DNA of 64,000 nucleotides from an uncultured Chloroflexales bacterium (GTDB lineage Bacteria; Chloroflexota; Chloroflexia; Chloroflexales; Chloroflexaceae), in the NCBI GenBank assembly GCA_937918935.1, contig CAKZSI010000057.1, positions 1-64,000 of the forward strand, written 5' to 3'. Both the position numbers and the translations under genes were made by a program. Positions 23 to 8,241 of the stretch are shown one piece after another. The notes under the pieces were generated by a model, which worked only from the letters and a program-made list of their open reading frames with translations, was not told the origin of the DNA and did no database searches. The first letter of the stretch is position 1; the number at the start of each line of letters is the position of its first letter.

Positions 23-1225
23 ATGACCGCTTACCTTATCCGCCGGTTGTTTCAGATGCTGATCGTGACCGTCCTCTCGGCGATGCTGGGCTACACCCTG
101 TTGTACCTGGCGCCGGGGGGGCCGTTGTTGTTTTTGCAGCAGATGCAGAATACCGGTCAGAACCGCGTGAGCGAAGAGGACATCGCGCGCCTCAAGGCGC
201 GCTACGAGCTTGATCTCTATCTTCCGGTGCGCTTCACCCGCTGGCTGATCGGCTTCCCCGGCGGGCCGGTACGCATCGGCGGGTGGTACCTGCTCCCGCC
301 CGACACGGTGGTGGGCTGCGCCATCCCCGGGCAGGTGCGCCTGCGCTACCCCGACGGCACGGTGGAGATTCGCGAAGAGGGCTGCGCACGGGCGGTCACC
401 CTGGCCGACCTGGAGAACCGCCGCACCAGCCGCGGCATCCTCTTTGGCGATTTTGGTCTCTCCCAGCAGATCGCCCGCGACCGCCCGGTGAGCGACCTGT
501 TGATGAGCCGCCTGCCCTACACCCTGTGGCTGATGGGCGTGTCCACCTTGCTGGCGATCCTGATCGGCGTGCCGGTGGGGATCTATTCGGCGGTGCGCCA
601 GTATTCGCGCTTTGATTATGCGATGACCACTATCACCTTCATCGGTTCGTCGCTGCCGACCCTGTTCATGGGGGTGATGGCCATTCTGATCTTCTCCGTG
701 CTTGCCAAGGACGCCGGGTTGCCCTACCTGCCCTCCGGCGGCGCGGAGGCGGTGCGAGACTATACCGTTCCCTGGATCGGCAGGGTGGAGGCCGGCTCGT
801 TACTGGATCGCTTCCTGCGTTTCATCATGCCGGTCAGCGTGCTGACGTTCTTCAACATCGCCGGCTGGAGCCGCTTCGTGCGCGCCAGCATGCTCGAAGT
901 GCTGCGGCAGGACTACGTGCGCACCGCACGGGCCAAGGGGGTGCGCGAGCAAATGGTGATCACCAGGCACGCTCTGCGCAACGCGCTGATCCCCTTCATC
1001 ACGCTCCTGGCCGGCGTGCTGCCGACACTGGTGGCCGGGGCGGCGATCACCGAGTCGGTCTTCAACTGGCCGGGCATGGGCCGCCTGCTGGTCGACTCCC
1101 TGGGGCGCAGCGATTATACCGTGGCCATGGCCATTCTGTTCATCAGCACCGTACTGGTATTGATCGGCTATTTAATCTCGGATATTCTATATACAATTGT
1201 TGATCCCCGTATCCGGCTCTCGTGA
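23..1225 (+). CDS. ABC peptide/nickel importer permease, DppB/OppB type
   Basis: Inner-membrane permease of a peptide-type ABC importer. The N-terminus (ITAYLIRRL-like, residues 1-30) and the C-terminal half are typical of the DppB family, with the EAA loop visible as SMLEVLRQDYVRTARAKG followed by the last membrane helices and the family ending DPRIRLS. At 400 residues it is longer than the usual 310-340 because of an extracytoplasmic insertion at about residues 85-145 carrying two cysteines that could pair. The next gene starts right after its stop codon, so it heads a four-gene operon with the DppC-, DppD- and DppF-type genes. No binding-protein gene lies between it and the window edge. 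No convincing ribosome-binding site is visible in the 22 bases available. The transported substrate cannot be told from sequence. Confidence 0.93.
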   Translation: MTAYLIRRLFQMLIVTVLSAMLGYTLLYLAPGGPLLFLQQMQNTGQNRVSEEDIARLKARYELDLYLPVRFTRWLIGFPGGPVRIGGWYLLPPDTVVGCAIPGQVRLRYPDGTVEIREEGCARAVTLADLENRRTSRGILFGDFGLSQQIARDRPVSDLLMSRLPYTLWLMGVSTLLAILIGVPVGIYSAVRQYSRFDYAMTTITFIGSSLPTLFMGVMAILIFSVLAKDAGLPYLPSGGAEAVRDYTVPWIGRVEAGSLLDRFLRFIMPVSVLTFFNIAGWSRFVRASMLEVLRQDYVRTARAKGVREQMVITRHALRNALIPFITLLAGVLPTLVAGAAITESVFNWPGMGRLLVDSLGRSDYTVAMAILFISTVLVLIGYLISDILYTIVDPRIRLS

Positions 1226-1238
1226 GGAGCGACGTTCG

Positions 1239-2237
1239 ATGGCCACAACAACCTCGGCAGTTCCCGAAGCTGCCGAACGCGCGCAGCCGCGTTCCGAAGG
1301 TCAGTGGGTGGTGGTCTTCAGGCGCTTTCGGCGCCACCGCCTGGCGATGATCAGCCTGGCCGTCCTGGCGGTGATCTTCGGCGCGTCGCTCCTGGCGCCC
1401 TGGATCGCTCCCTTCCCCCGCGACGACATCGGGCTGAACCGCGTGGCCCTGCCGCCGATGAGCGTTGACCCGGCCAACGGCAAGCTGCACATCCTCGGCA
1501 CCGACCACCTGGGGCGCGATTTCTTCACCCGCGTGATCTACGCCGCGCGCGTCTCGCTCATGGTCGCCATCTCGGTGACCGTGCTGGTGGCGATCATCGG
1601 CACCATCCTGGGCCTGCTGGCCGGCTACTTCGGCGGCTGGACCGATAATCTGATCAGCCGGGTGATGGAGTTCGTCGCTACCATCCCCGATCTGCCGATC
1701 CTGCTGATCCTCAGCGCGATCATGATCCAGAACGCCAGTCTGATTGTCCTGCCGGCATGGATTATCGGGCCGGTGGCCTGGATCATGGCCGTGCCGCTAC
1801 GCGAGGCCACCCAGGTGACCTTGCTGATCCTGGTGCTGGCGTCGCTGGGCTGGGTCGGTGTGGCGCGCCTCATGCGCGGCATGGTGCTCCAGGTGCGCGA
1901 AATGCAGTACATCGAGTCGGCGCGGGCGCTGGGCGGCGCCGATACCTGGATCCTGGGCAAGCACGTCTTTCCTAATGCCTTCCCGCCGCTGATTGTGGCC
2001 TTCACCCTGGGACTCAACGGCGCCCTCGTCAGCGAGGTGGCAATCAGCTTCCTCGGCTTCGGCGTGCAGGACCCCACGCCCACCTGGGGTAATATGATGG
2101 GCTTCGCCACCAGCTACATGTTTAACCATCCCTGGATGCCGCTCATCCCCGGCCTGCCGATCTTTCTCTGTTCGCTGGCCTTTAATTTTGTGGGTGATGG
2201 TTTGCGTGATGCGCTCGACCCGCGCTTGAAGATCTGA
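1239..2237 (+). CDS. ABC peptide/nickel importer permease, DppC/OppC type
   Basis: Second permease of the importer (332 aa). The ATG at 1239 is preferred over an upstream in-frame start because GAGGAG lies at 1224-1229, overlapping the stop of the preceding permease, with a 9-base spacer. Residues near the N-terminus are a cytoplasmic tail, followed by a helix (MISLAVLAVIFGASLLAPW), the family signature GTDHLGRDFFTRVIYAARVSL, the EAA-type loop (REMQYIESARALGG) and the ending GDGLRDALDPRLKI, all characteristic of DppC. It pairs with the DppB-type subunit to form the pore. Confidence 0.94.
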   Translation: MATTTSAVPEAAERAQPRSEGQWVVVFRRFRRHRLAMISLAVLAVIFGASLLAPWIAPFPRDDIGLNRVALPPMSVDPANGKLHILGTDHLGRDFFTRVIYAARVSLMVAISVTVLVAIIGTILGLLAGYFGGWTDNLISRVMEFVATIPDLPILLILSAIMIQNASLIVLPAWIIGPVAWIMAVPLREATQVTLLILVLASLGWVGVARLMRGMVLQVREMQYIESARALGGADTWILGKHVFPNAFPPLIVAFTLGLNGALVSEVAISFLGFGVQDPTPTWGNMMGFATSYMFNHPWMPLIPGLPIFLCSLAFNFVGDGLRDALDPRLKI

Positions 2238-2244
2238 GGCCGGT

Positions 2245-2401
2245 GTGGGGAGGGTCCGGGAGGGGGCAGCCCTCCCAGGAACACCCTGCGGCCGGTGGGC
2301 GGAGGGACTGGGAGGGCTGCGCCCTCCCAGAAAATCTCCTCTCACCTCATCGTTGCACAGCGAAGCCCTATGCAGCCTGATAAGGAAAGAGCAAAAAACC
2401 A
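2245..2401. repeat. Two tandem GC palindromes (family D) inside the operon
   Basis: Two copies of a hairpin built on GGGAGGG...CCCTCCC (about 2250-2283 and 2304-2334) fill the gap between the permease and ATPase genes. The same palindrome recurs at 16030, 34118, 53283, 57103 and 61400. An intra-operonic position suggests an mRNA processing or stability element rather than a terminator, since no T-run follows. An AAGGAAAG at 2382-2389 precedes the next gene. Confidence 0.6.
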
Positions 2402-3433
2402 TTGAGCACAACACCGGTTTCCGCCCCCGCCACCACGCCACGCGCCACGCCGCACCACGGCGATGTGCTGCTCCGGGTGCGCGGCTTGAAAACCCACTTC
2501 TTTACCGAGGCCGGCGTGGTGCGCGCCGTGGACGGCATTGACCTCGTCCTGCGGCGTGGCGAGACGCTGAGCATCGTCGGCGAGAGCGGTTCGGGCAAGA
2601 GCGTCACCTCGCTCTCGATTATGCGCCTGATCCAGTACCCTCCGGGCAAGATCGTCGAGGGCGAGATCATTTTCGACGGCGTGGACGTGCTCGCGCTGAG
2701 CGAGGAGGACATGCGCCGCATCCGCGGTAACCGTATCTCGATGATCTTCCAGCAACCCACCACCTGCCTCAACCCGGTCTTCCGGGTGGGCGACCAGATC
2801 GTCGAGGCGTTGCAGATCCACCAGGGGCTGAAAGGCGAGGAGGCCGAGCGCCGTTGCATCGAGCTGCTGAGCATGGTCGGTCTGCCCGACCCCCGGCGCC
2901 GCATCAGGCAGTACCCCCACGAACTGTCGGGCGGGCAGGCCCAGCGCGTAATGATCGCCATGGCCCTGGCCTGCAACCCCGAACTGCTGATCGCCGATGA
3001 GCCGACCACCGCCCTCGACGTCACCATCCAGGCCCAGATCCTTGACCTGATGCGCGCCCTGCGCGAGAAGATCGAAACCTCGATTATCCTCATCACCCAC
3101 GACATGGGCGTGGTGGCCGAGATGGCCGATACCGTGGCGGTGATGTACGCCGGGCAGATCGTCGAGTACGCCGACGTGCGCAGTCTCTTCGGTGACCCCA
3201 AACATCCCTACACCCAGGGCCTGCTGGAGTCGATCCCCGTGCTGGGCGAAGTGGTGGATCAACTGGCCACCATCCCTGGCACGGTGCCGAACCTGATCAA
3301 CCCGCCCACCGGCTGCCGCTTCGCCGAGCGTTGCTCCCGGCGCTTCGAGCGTTGCGACGAACCGGTGCCAATGTTTGACCTTGAAGGCGGGCGCAAGGTG
3401 CGCTGCTGGCTGTACGAGCGAGGGGAAGCATGA
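2402..3433 (+). CDS. ABC importer ATPase, DppD/OppD type
   Basis: Cytoplasmic ATPase (343 aa) powering the importer. Walker A is GESGSGKS (near residue 60), the signature is LSGGQAQRV, Walker B is [12 protein letters not shown] and the H-loop is ITHDMG. The C-terminal extension has the family's oligopeptide/dipeptide cysteine cluster ([15 protein letters not shown]), which in relatives can hold an Fe-S cluster. The start is TTG at 2402, supported by AAGGAAAG about 11 bases upstream; an Ala/Thr/Pro-rich N-terminal tail of roughly 20 residues precedes the conserved domain. Its stop overlaps the start of the next ATPase gene. Confidence 0.94.
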
Positions 3434-4428
3434 GCGTCTCGGCACCCGCGGGCGATCCCGGCGTCCTGCTGGAAGTCAACAACCTGGTCAAGCACTTTCC
3501 GATCAAGGGCGGGGTATTGCGCCGCACCGTCGGGCACGTCAAAGCCGTGGACGGGGTGAGCTTCTTCATCCGCCGCGGCGAGACCCTGGGCCTGGTCGGC
3601 GAGAGTGGCTGCGGCAAAACTACCACCGGGCGCACGGTGCTGCGTCTGGAGCGGGCCACCGCTGGCGAGGTGCTCTTCGAGGGCAACGACGTGCTCAAGG
3701 CGAACCGGAAGCAGTTGAAGGCCCTGCGGCGCGATATGCAGATTGTCTTCCAGGACCCCTATGCCTCGCTCGACCCGCGCCTGACGATCGGCGAGAGCGT
3801 TGCCGAGGGGCTGGTGATCCATGGCATCGGCACGCCCGCCGAGCGGCGCGAGCGTGTGCGTGAGGTGCTGGCCCGCGTGGGCCTGCACGCCAGCCACATG
3901 AGCCGCTTCCCCCACGAGTTCTCCGGGGGGCAGCGGCAGCGTATCGGCATCGCCCGCGCCCTGATCATGGAACCAAAACTGATTGTCTGCGACGAGCCGG
4001 TCAGCGCGCTGGACGTCTCGATCCAGTCGCAGGTGCTCAACCTGCTCAAGAACCTGCAACGGGAATTCGGGTTGACCTACCTGTTCATCGCCCACAACCT
4101 GGCCGTGGTGGAACACATCAGCGACCGGGTGGGGGTGATGTACCTGGGTAAACTGGTGGAACTGGCCAGCCGCGACGATCTGTTCCGCGGGCCGCTGCAC
4201 CCTTACACGAAGGCGCTGATCTCGGCCATTCCGCATCCTGACCCGACGCGGCGCCGCGAGCGGATCGTGCTACAGGGCGACGTGCCCAGCCCGATCAACC
4301 CTCCCGCGGGCTGCCGCTTCCACCCGCGCTGCTGGATCGCCCGCGACATCTGCAAGGAGCAGGAACCGGCCTTCGAGGAGAAGAGGAAAGGCCACTGGGT
4401 GTCCTGCCACTTCGCCGGGCAGTTTTGA
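3430..4428 (+). CDS. ABC importer ATPase, DppF/OppF type
   Basis: Second ATPase subunit (332 aa) of the same importer, starting with an ATGA overlap with the DppD-type gene, so the two are translationally coupled. Walker [10 protein letters not shown], signature [15 protein letters not shown], Walker [15 protein letters not shown] and H-loop FIAHNLAVV are all present, and the C-terminal cysteine motif ([15 protein letters not shown]) is kept. It could also energise the second permease pair at 60-62 kb, which has no ATPase next to it; that is inference. Confidence 0.94.
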
Positions 4429-5526: not shown

Positions 5527-6165
5527 TCACCCCCGCGTCTCTTTCCGCTGGAGCATGGCCCGCCAGGCTGTCTCGACCTGCGCTCGGGTTGCGTCAGGCG
5601 AGCCGCCATTGTCAATCACCACCGTGGCGTGCGCCAGACGGTCCGCCTGAGGCGCCTGAGCGGCGATGCGTTGCCGCGCCTCGGCCTCGCTCATACCCCG
5701 CGTGGCCATGAGTCGCGCCACCTGCTGCTCCTCGGGGGCCGTCACGACCCACACCTCGTCACACACCTGCACCCAGCCCGACTCGATCAGTTTGACAACG
5801 TCAATCACCACCACCGGGCGCTCGGCGGCTCCGGCGGCGCGGCCCACCGCTTCAATGAATTTGCGCAGTTCGACCCGCACCGCCGGATGCACAATCTGCT
5901 CCAACTGGCGCAGCCGCTGCGGGTCGCTGAAGACAAGCGCTGCCAGCCGGCGCCGGTCGAGCGGGGCGCCGGGTTCCGGTACAGCTTCGGGAAAGGCGGC
6001 GGCGATCTGCTCGTAGACCGGCATGCCCGGGGCCTGCAACTCGTGGGTCACGCGGTCGGCGTCAATGGTGCGTGCACCGAGATCGGCGAGCATCGTTAGC
6101 ACGGTGCTCTTGCCGCAGGCGATGCCGCCGGTCAGGCCGATGAGGTAGACGTCAGGGTGTTTCAT
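5527..6165 (-). CDS. coaE: Dephospho-CoA kinase
   Basis: Last step of coenzyme A synthesis: ATP-dependent phosphorylation of the 3'-hydroxyl of dephospho-CoA. The 212-aa protein begins YLIGLTGGIACGKSTV, the P-loop, followed by the DADRVTHEL segment and the conserved FSDPQRLRQLEQIVHPAVR and DVVKLIESGW stretches of the CoaE family. It is transcribed leftward behind the amidohydrolase-CYTH gene with about 100 bases between them, so co-transcription is possible. Confidence 0.95.
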   Translation of the reverse strand: MKHPDVYLIGLTGGIACGKSTVLTMLADLGARTIDADRVTHELQAPGMPVYEQIAAAFPEAVPEPGAPLDRRRLAALVFSDPQRLRQLEQIVHPAVRVELRKFIEAVGRAAGAAERPVVVIDVVKLIESGWVQVCDEVWVVTAPEEQQVARLMATRGMSEAEARQRIAAQAPQADRLAHATVVIDNGGSPDATRAQVETAWRAMLQRKETRG

Positions 6166-6270: not shown

Positions 6271-8241
6271 TCACACCATCTCCACATACTCCTGCTTCAC
6301 CAGATCGCGCTCGTTCACGCCGGCGATGGCGAGGAGTTCGCCGATCAGCGCGGCGCGTTCGGCGGCGTCGCGGCTGCTCCAGGTGCGGCTCTTGATCTCC
6401 AGATAGGGGCCGGAGTCGCTGCCGCCCAGGAGGGTATCGAGATTGATGGAGAAATCGTGCTCCCGGTACATGATCCGCCAGCGCCGGCGGCGCTTCTCCA
6501 GTTCAACCACTTTGTCGGGCTGAAAATACTCGCGGTAGAAGCGCACGGTATGGTCGGCGGGGGCGGTGTAGCGGGCGCGGGAGAGCACGATGGCGTGGGG
6601 GTACTCCCCGCGGATGGCCTCGGCCATCAGGGTAATGGTGTACTTCGGTTCGGGGCGCGCGCCGGGGTCGGTGCGGTGGTCTTCACGGATGCGAATACGT
6701 TCCCGATTCTTGAATAAAAAATACGTGTCATATTGGGTGCGAACACTGGTCTTGGTGATCGTCACCCGGGGATCTTCGAGAATGCGGCGCACCTTGTTCT
6801 CGCCATCAGGGCCGAGGCGCGCCTTGACCTGGATCTCGAAGATTTCGGCCTGCTGCACCCCGCCGAGGGCCAGGATCTTGGCCATCAGGTTGCGTTCGCG
6901 CGAGGCCAGAAATTCGTCAATGCGCGCCGAGATGGCCTGGGCGCGGGCCAGGATGGCCTCCTCGTCGAGGGTCAGCAGGACACGGTCGCGCACCAGCACC
7001 CGTCCATCAACCAGCACATGGCGCACATCGGCGGCGCGGGCGCCGTAGACCAGGTGCGAGTAGATCGCCTCGGGGCTGTAGAAGTAGCGTGGCGCACTGT
7101 GGAGCTTGCCCAGTTCCACCACGGCGATGTCGGCCCGCTTGTGAGGCTCCAGCGACCCCACCAGGTGCTCCAGATGCACGGCGCGGGCCCCCCAGCAGGT
7201 GGCCAGCGCCAGGGCCTCACGAGCGGGCACCGCGGTCGGGTCGCCGCTGACACCTTTGGGGAGCAGGGCCGCCAACTGGATCTCGGTGAACATGTCCTGA
7301 TCGTCGTTGGAGGCCGGCCCATCGGTGCCCAGACCGGTGCGCACGCCAGCGTCGATCAGGCGCTTGTAGGGGGCGATGCCGCTGGCGAGCTTGAGGTTGC
7401 TGGTGGGGCAGGGCACGGCCCCGGCGCGGGCCTCGCGCAGCAGGCGAATGTCGTCCTCGGTGGCGTGGGTGCAGTGGGCGGCGATGCAGGGCACATCGAA
7501 GGCCCCGACGCGCCGGGCGTAGCGGATGGGCGTCACCTCGCGCTCGCGAATGCTCTCCTCCACCTCGCGGGCGGTCTCCGAGAGATGAGTGATCAGCGGC
7601 ACGCCGTACTTGCGGCACAGCGCCGCCGCTTCCTGGTAGATGCGGTCGGTGCAGGTGTAGGGGGCGTGGGGCGCGACCGTAGGCACGATCCGCTCGTGTC
7701 CGGTCCACTCCTCGATGAAGCGCCGCGCGCGCTCCAGGCCCTCGTCGAACGAGGCGGCGTCGGGCGTGGGCAGGCGCATCACTGTCTGGCCACAGATGGC
7801 GCGCATGCCGGCTTCGTCGGCGGCCCGCGCCACCTGCTCCTCGAAGTAGTACATATCCACGAAGGTCGTCGTGCCGCCGCGCAGCATCTCGGCGCAGGAG
7901 AGCAGCGTGCCGACGTAGGAGAACTCCTCGTCCACGAACTTGCTCTCCACCGGGAACATATAGCCGAAGAGCCAGACATCGAGTTGCTGGTCGGCGGTCA
8001 TGCCGCGCAGCAGGCTCATGGGCACATGGGCGTGGCCGTTGATCAGACCGGGGATCACCGCGCAGCCGGTGCAATCTATCGTCTCGCGGGCGGCGTAGCG
8101 CCGCGCCAGTTCACTCGCCGGCCCCACGGCGACAATTTCCCGCCCACGTACTGCCACGGCCCCCTCGGGGACGACCGTCCAGGCCGGGTTCATCGTCACC
8201 ACGGTTCCGCCGGTAAGCAAGAGATCTACTGGTTCGGACAT
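6271..8241 (-). CDS. Amidohydrolase (SAH/adenosine deaminase-like) fused to a CYTH domain
   Basis: A 656-aa two-domain protein. Residues 1 to about 445 are a cytosine-deaminase-like amidohydrolase of the MtaD/TrzN group: metal ligands H70 and H72 (NGHAHV), H192 (PHAPYT), H219 with E222 (THLSET) and D307 (GTDGPASN). This group deaminates S-adenosylhomocysteine, methylthioadenosine, guanine or triazines; the true substrate is unknown. Residues about 465-650 match a CYTH/triphosphate-tunnel domain: acidic-basic strand EIQVK (469-473), RIRIRE (515-520), ELEKRRRRW and the ending strand YLEIK (613-617). CYTH proteins act on triphosphates (adenylate cyclase, thiamine triphosphatase, RNA triphosphatase). 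Both halves look intact and in one frame. A purine-nucleotide role would link them, but that is inference. An extended -10 lies just upstream at 8293-8301. Confidence 0.88.
   Translation of the reverse strand: MSEPVDLLLTGGTVVTMNPAWTVVPEGAVAVRGREIVAVGPASELARRYAARETIDCTGCAVIPGLINGHAHVPMSLLRGMTADQQLDVWLFGYMFPVESKFVDEEFSYVGTLLSCAEMLRGGTTTFVDMYYFEEQVARAADEAGMRAICGQTVMRLPTPDAASFDEGLERARRFIEEWTGHERIVPTVAPHAPYTCTDRIYQEAAALCRKYGVPLITHLSETAREVEESIREREVTPIRYARRVGAFDVPCIAAHCTHATEDDIRLLREARAGAVPCPTSNLKLASGIAPYKRLIDAGVRTGLGTDGPASNDDQDMFTEIQLAALLPKGVSGDPTAVPAREALALATCWGARAVHLEHLVGSLEPHKRADIAVVELGKLHSAPRYFYSPEAIYSHLVYGARAADVRHVLVDGRVLVRDRVLLTLDEEAILARAQAISARIDEFLASRERNLMAKILALGGVQQAEIFEIQVKARLGPDGENKVRRILEDPRVTITKTSVRTQYDTYFLFKNRERIRIREDHRTDPGARPEPKYTITLMAEAIRGEYPHAIVLSRARYTAPADHTVRFYREYFQPDKVVELEKRRRRWRIMYREHDFSINLDTLLGGSDSGPYLEIKSRTWSSRDAAERAALIGELLAIAGVNERDLVKQEYVEMV

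Follow-up and report, generated by a model that had tools for sequence, protein, structure and literature searches.

A deaminase-type amidohydrolase joined to a CYTH domain with an altered active site in Chloroflexota

The fusion gene and its surroundings

The window, a stretch of 64,000 nucleotides of contig CAKZSI010000057.1 of an uncultured Chloroflexales bacterium, contains an open reading frame of 656 codons on its minus strand (positions 6271-8241). It runs from an ATG start to a TGA stop without interruption, and an AGGAG-like sequence directly 5' of the ATG provides a plausible ribosome-binding site. The predicted protein of 656 amino acids combines a deaminase-type amidohydrolase with a CYTH/TTM domain. 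According to Pfam, residues 62-415 match Amidohydro_1 (E 1.2e-68) and residues 469-630 match CYTH (29 bits, above the cut-off of 23.2; E 1.2e-6), and the AlphaFold model of the whole protein reached a pLDDT of 92 and a pTM of 0.83. The reading frame, the Pfam matches and the model thus confirm the amidohydrolase-CYTH fusion in one uninterrupted frame that had been claimed in a preliminary description of this DNA.

The amidohydrolase half covers residues 1-440 (6922-8241, minus strand) and is joined to the CYTH half, residues 458-656 (6271-6870, minus strand), by a helical linker at residues 441-457 approximately (6871-6921, minus strand). The linker region of the model consists of the helices 427-450 and 452-459, and its residues R448, E449 and K455 are invariant across the fused relatives.

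The next gene downstream, outside the fusion, is coaE encoding a dephospho-CoA kinase (5527-6165, minus strand), which lies on the same strand at a distance of 105 bp. coaE directly follows the fusion in 29 related loci, often after a very short gap, all of which belong to the Chloroflexia, and was not found in this position in the Anaerolineae loci. Genes for an FHA regulator, VKOR/DsbA, MoeA, RNase III and a pyrimidine-nucleoside phosphorylase neighbour the fusion in only six or seven Anaerolineae loci each. Since no partner gene conserved across both classes at a fixed position was found in the surveyed loci, the gene context is not decisive and names no pathway.

Two further observations concern the neighbourhood. 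The pyrimidine-nucleoside phosphorylase gene (Glycos_transf_3 and PYNP_C) lies beside the fusion, usually on the opposite strand, in six Anaerolineae loci (e.g. L113:505-1899) and possibly represents a salvage context. An operon for an ABC transporter of the dipeptide/oligopeptide type with two permeases and two ATPases is located near the fusion in the window (23-4428, plus strand), and similar transporter genes occur near it in several Chloroflexaceae loci.

The solved proteins nearest to the amidohydrolase half are the MTA/SAH/adenosine deaminases 4f0r, 4dyk, 4gbd and 4dzh, with 37-38% identity along the entire half and a closely matching fold (TM 0.96-0.97). In NCBIfam the best match was PRK09045 with 441.7 bits, below its cut-off of 540, and the half stayed below every equivalog cut-off among those listed. 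By analogy with the 37-38% identical solved relatives, a 6-aminopurine nucleoside is well supported as substrate class, but no particular substrate is.

Invariance was assessed in 101 distinct fused relatives and the window protein (102 sequences, median identity 53%). H70, H72, H219, D307, E222 and H256 as well as the pocket residues W90, E99 and H192 are invariant in 102/102. As in other ADA-like amidohydrolases, H70, H72, H219 and D307 are the metal ligands and E222 and H256 the catalytic acid and shuttle, and H192 is the substrate-pocket histidine of strand 4 and no metal ligand. E99 and W90 have the ribose-pocket roles of their counterparts in TM0936. The preliminary description had named H70, H72, H192, H219 and D307 as metal ligands; all five are invariant, and H192 is the only one to be reassigned.

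The genome of the window also encodes SahH, MTAP and an unfused MTA/SAH-deaminase-like paralogue with approximately 38% identity (L227; G000:C28:800-2300). The fusion therefore does not simply fill a gap in SAH or MTA recycling, and the metabolic need for the fused deaminase is not obvious.

Distribution and history of the fusion

The CYTH half is present in 36 of the 41 genomes of the window's family and is fused wherever the contig permits a check. In a scan of GTDB contigs all 77 relatives with a gene long enough to be judged were fusions, which span the range from Chloroflexia to Anaerolineae with identities down to approximately 45%. The profile of the CYTH subfamily matched 89 of 400 sampled Chloroflexota genomes, again Chloroflexia and Anaerolineae, at 90 places where the reading frames are all at least 657 amino acids long except for two ended by contig edges. 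No stand-alone copy of this subfamily was seen in the 400 genomes; the apparent stand-alone CYTH genes in genomes G174 and G405 proved to be short frames ended by contig edges. The two-domain architecture, which the preliminary description had suggested searching for across genomes, thus recurs in 89 of the 400, and the opposing case, separate genes with a fusion unique to this sequence, fails as the fusion is widespread in the phylum and no unfused copy of the CYTH subfamily was seen in the sample. The best 80 of 146 relatives in the genome scan were all from Chloroflexota, and none were found among viral contigs and plasmids.

In the same sample of 400 genomes the profile of the amidohydrolase half scored full-length fused proteins with at least 686 bits, compared with 421 for the best unfused relative. 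In a tree of deaminase halves from 35 fused and 20 unfused Chloroflexota sequences the fused ones form one side of a single branch (support 100/99), which was recovered in all bootstrap trees. Together with the lack of a stand-alone CYTH copy, this single fused clade suggests one ancient fusion without any fission seen as the simplest history. The spread across the phylum, the profile scores and the single clade in the tree rule out a unique or recent fusion.

Nei-Gojobori dN/dS values against relatives of 71-99% identity lie at about 0.03-0.12 for the deaminase half and about 0.05-0.12 for the CYTH half, which shows strong purifying selection on both. A chance event or an assembly artefact is ruled out by these low values and the conservation of the fusion in 89 genomes. 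A joint function of the two halves is likely, given that much of the phylum has conserved the fusion and that both active sites are strongly constrained.

In one genome outside the window's class (G326, Chloroflexota) the fusion is present twice, as the diverged full-length copies L179 and L180, both of which bear the ExQxK and ExK motifs described below.

Fold and active site of the CYTH half

Modelled alone, the CYTH half forms an eight-stranded TTM barrel (pLDDT 90.6). Its top fold match is the archaeal CYTH protein PH1819 (2een; Z 17.1, 164 residues, 2.4 A), and further matches include other archaeal CYTH proteins, class IV cyclases and SaTTM. Pfam CYTH scores in the fused proteins range from 29 to 33 bits compared with a gathering score of 23.2. 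With this score and its fold the half falls into the CYTH superfamily (PF01928), although a PDB profile search returned no CYTH match but only weak MutS noise. The hhalign alignment of the fused subfamily with canonical CYTH proteins was end-to-end but statistically weak (probability 2.3%, E 0.02); the motif spacing, the fold and the Pfam match all point the same way.

An alignment with 30 canonical CYTH sequences from the window's family shows that the fused subfamily keeps E469, K473, R517, R519, D602 and E615. It differs by two replacements found in 102/102 fused sequences: the ExExK motif is altered to ExQxK by a glutamine in place of the second glutamate (E469-I-Q471-V-K473; 6823-6837, minus strand), and ExE is altered to ExK by a lysine in place of the second glutamate (E615-I-K617; 6391-6399, minus strand). 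Furthermore, the canonical TLK lysine is lost, its position being variable and mostly occupied by M, T, I, V or L. The tunnel arginines R517-I-R519 (6685-6693, minus strand) are retained, and E469, Q471, K473, R517, R519, K583, R585, R587, D602, E615 and K617 are invariant in all 102 sequences. The fused proteins are also marked by a near-invariant helix (residues 566-573 in the model) with the motif R567-F-Y-R-E-Y-F573 (6523-6543, minus strand). Canonical stand-alone CYTH proteins of the window's family retain ExExK, TLKG and ExE. Every genus of the family has a CYTH match, and nearly all of these are separate canonical CYTH genes. As almost all genomes of the family possess such a separate gene, the family provides its own control.

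TTM proteins bind two metals, one positioning the triphosphate (site 1) and one activating the attacking water (site 2; Martinez et al. 2015, PMC4641920). The ligand of site 1 is Glu160 in ygiF and Glu169 in AtTTM3, those of site 2 are Glu4, Glu6 and Glu162 of ygiF; the exchange Glu6Ala impairs ygiF, and mutation of a site-2 glutamate impairs the activity of ygiF and AtTTM3 (PMC4641920). For nucleotide binding Vtc4p uses site 1 alone (PMC4641920). The motifs of working TTM proteins are ExExK, RxR and ExE, the second glutamate of the latter being needed for metal 2 (2021 SaTTM paper, PMC8233210). In the fused protein E615 corresponds to site 1, and E469, Q471 and K617 occupy the site-2 positions of ygiF. 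Hence, of the motifs of TTM triphosphatases, RxR and the site-1 glutamate are present and both ExExK and ExE are absent in 102/102.

By analogy with these enzymes the CYTH half would retain the substrate-binding metal site 1 and the two tunnel arginines but lack two of the three site-2 ligands. As the same replacements recur in 102/102 sequences at 53% median identity, they do not reflect decay but a different, fixed active site with a lysine at the position of a catalytic-metal ligand. The CYTH domain had been described as complete, which applies to its fold but not to its catalytic set, EIQVK being ExQxK and YLEIK being ExK.

Proposed function and comparison with known systems

In our best explanation, to which we assign a probability of about 0.5, the protein is a two-domain enzyme of single origin, a deaminase with a conserved, probably non-hydrolytic phosphate-binding TTM module that is most likely regulatory. 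The N-terminal half is predicted to be a working metal-dependent deaminase of the adenosine, 5'-methylthioadenosine, SAH or 5'-deoxyadenosine class. The CYTH half would have kept the substrate-binding side of the barrel, comprising Glu615 at metal site 1 and the basic residues K473, R517, R519, K583, R585 and R587, while Gln471 and Lys617 would have replaced the catalytic metal site 2. With site 1 and the basic tunnel kept and site 2 replaced, the half would most likely use a single metal to bind a ligand with a phosphate chain, such as NTP, PPPi, polyphosphate or a related compound, and would not cut it by the two-metal mechanism of TTM proteins. Binding without hydrolysis is most likely in the light of the published TTM mechanism, and regulation of the deaminase, to which the constant fusion points, is likewise the most likely role; the ligand-sensing module would then tune the deaminase via the helical linker.

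More specifically, and more tentatively, the fusion may be a phylum-wide purine-nucleoside deaminase under the control of a "pseudo-TTM", a triphosphate tunnel converted from a catalyst to a dedicated sensor, with NTP, tripolyphosphate or polyphosphate as its ligand and a lysine occupying the catalytic metal site. If so, salvage of adenosine and of the SAM cycle would be linked to the energy or phosphate state. We know of no earlier regulatory, non-catalytic CYTH domain in bacteria, and such a pseudo-TTM would be the first.

Coupling of deamination with triphosphate hydrolysis, one of two functions put forward in the preliminary description, is disfavoured by the replacement of two of the three site-2 ligands and of the TLK lysine in all relatives. 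The loss of essential CYTH residues, which the same description had regarded as refuting, therefore applies to hydrolysis, whereas its other proposal, the sensing of a nucleotide or phosphate, survives and is favoured.

The alternative that fares best, though unlikely, is a bifunctional enzyme in which the purine-nucleoside deaminase is accompanied by a CYTH half that still hydrolyses a triphosphate or pyrophosphate through a changed mechanism. It would account for the invariance of the basic tunnel residues, the site-1 glutamate and the catalytic arginine (R517, equivalent to Arg52 of AtTTM3), and it has a precedent in plant TTM1/2, which lack ExExK and ExE and still show pyrophosphatase activity (PMC8233210), so that the lost motifs are no proof of a total loss of hydrolysis. 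However, one of the two site-2 ligands missing in 102/102 is replaced by a lysine, site-2 glutamate mutations impair ygiF and AtTTM3 (PMC4641920), and the CYTH matches in the genera of the family are nearly all separate canonical genes.

Slightly less probable still is a docking function, in which the tunnel grips the phosphate tail of the substrate itself and the enzyme deaminates a phosphorylated adenine compound (an adenine nucleotide, a dinucleotide or an AThTP-like compound) instead of a free nucleoside. The presence of a tunnel capable of holding a phosphate chain and a 6-aminopurine deaminase in one polypeptide is consistent with this proposal, as is the pTM of the whole model, which suggests some fixed domain arrangement. 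Yet the closest solved relatives (4f0r, 4gbd) act on nucleosides with small 5' groups, and the pocket residues E99 and W90 are those of this class of enzymes.

A purely structural or oligomerising role of the CYTH half, with a polar core conserved for folding, is in our view similarly improbable. The Mediator subunit Med18, which uses a TTM-type fold without catalysis, is among the fold matches of the half, and a conserved helical linker tethers it to the deaminase, but the invariance of K473, R517, R519, K583, R585, R587, D602, E615 and K617 in 102/102 exceeds the needs of folding.

Synthesis of polyphosphate from NTP by a VTC-like polymerase is very improbable: although Vtc4p likewise has site 1, lacks site 2 and has its acidic patch replaced by basic residues (PMC4641920), no Pfam VTC match was obtained for the fusion, the Vtc4p structure reached a Z of only 8.8 versus 17.1 for CYTH proteins, and K649, which aligns with the C-terminal canonical lysine, is not invariant.

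CYTH domains are regarded as enzymes, with ExExK and ExE as their defining motifs. In the clade described here, which comprises more than 100 distinct proteins from two Chloroflexota classes, the same two replacements are fixed throughout and a complete deaminase is the constant partner. This offers a clean natural test of binding versus cutting residues in TTM proteins and makes the CYTH half a candidate for a phosphate-sensing allosteric module. The labels "TRZ/ATZ hydrolase" and "adenylate cyclase" annotate the fused proteins incompletely. Provided that the sensing function is true, nucleoside salvage would be coupled to the phosphate or energy status of the cell in a phylum of ecological importance.

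No publication combining CYTH and amidohydrolase was found in the literature searched, which was short of most subscription journals and of the founding paper of 2002, and the architecture is therefore likely undescribed, in line with the preliminary description. PMC8233210 names HD, exopolyphosphatase, nucleotidyl kinase and CHAD as known fusion partners of CYTH domains, an amidohydrolase being absent from them.

The closest known amidohydrolases are the MTA/SAH/adenosine deaminases of Chromobacterium (4f0r/4f0s), P. aeruginosa (4dyk/4gbd) and Xanthomonas (4dzh) as well as TM0936. Like these, the fused half has the full metal and catalytic set, the ribose-pocket residue E99 and W90; unlike the solved proteins it bears a C-terminal CYTH domain, and the fused deaminases form their own clade apart from the tested unfused Chloroflexota relatives.

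With the CYTH/TTM enzymes compared (ygiF, AtTTM3, SaTTM, ThTPase and CyaB) the fusion shares RxR, the site-1 glutamate, the first glutamate and the lysine of ExExK and the aspartate of the lDxx strand. It differs from them by ExQxK for ExExK, ExK for ExE, the lack of the TLK lysine and the extra RFYREYF helix. Assignment to the class IV adenylyl cyclases, which are characterised by HF before ExExK, replacement of the first arginine of RxR and ExA, was rejected since the window protein has QQ at the HF position, R517 is invariant and ExK is found rather than ExA. Thiamine triphosphatase was rejected as well, W/YxRxR being absent with R at position 515 in 91/102 sequences and H, I, Q or L in the others. 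A VTC polyphosphate polymerase was rejected by sequence, none of 44 members matching VTC at E up to 1.

Vtc4p and the fusion have in common the presence of metal site 1, the absence of site 2 and a basic residue replacing an acidic-patch glutamate; unlike Vtc4p, the fusion retains E469, its position for the C-terminal catalytic lysine is not invariant and there is no sequence match between the two. In plant TTM1/TTM2 (7z67; fold match to the CYTH half with a Z of 14.4) a TTM barrel that has lost ExExK and ExE lies C-terminal to another enzyme domain, as in the fusion. The partner domain in TTM1/TTM2, which are found in plants and Amoebozoa, is a P-loop kinase, and these proteins keep W/YxRxR, whereas most of the fused Chloroflexota proteins have RxRxR.
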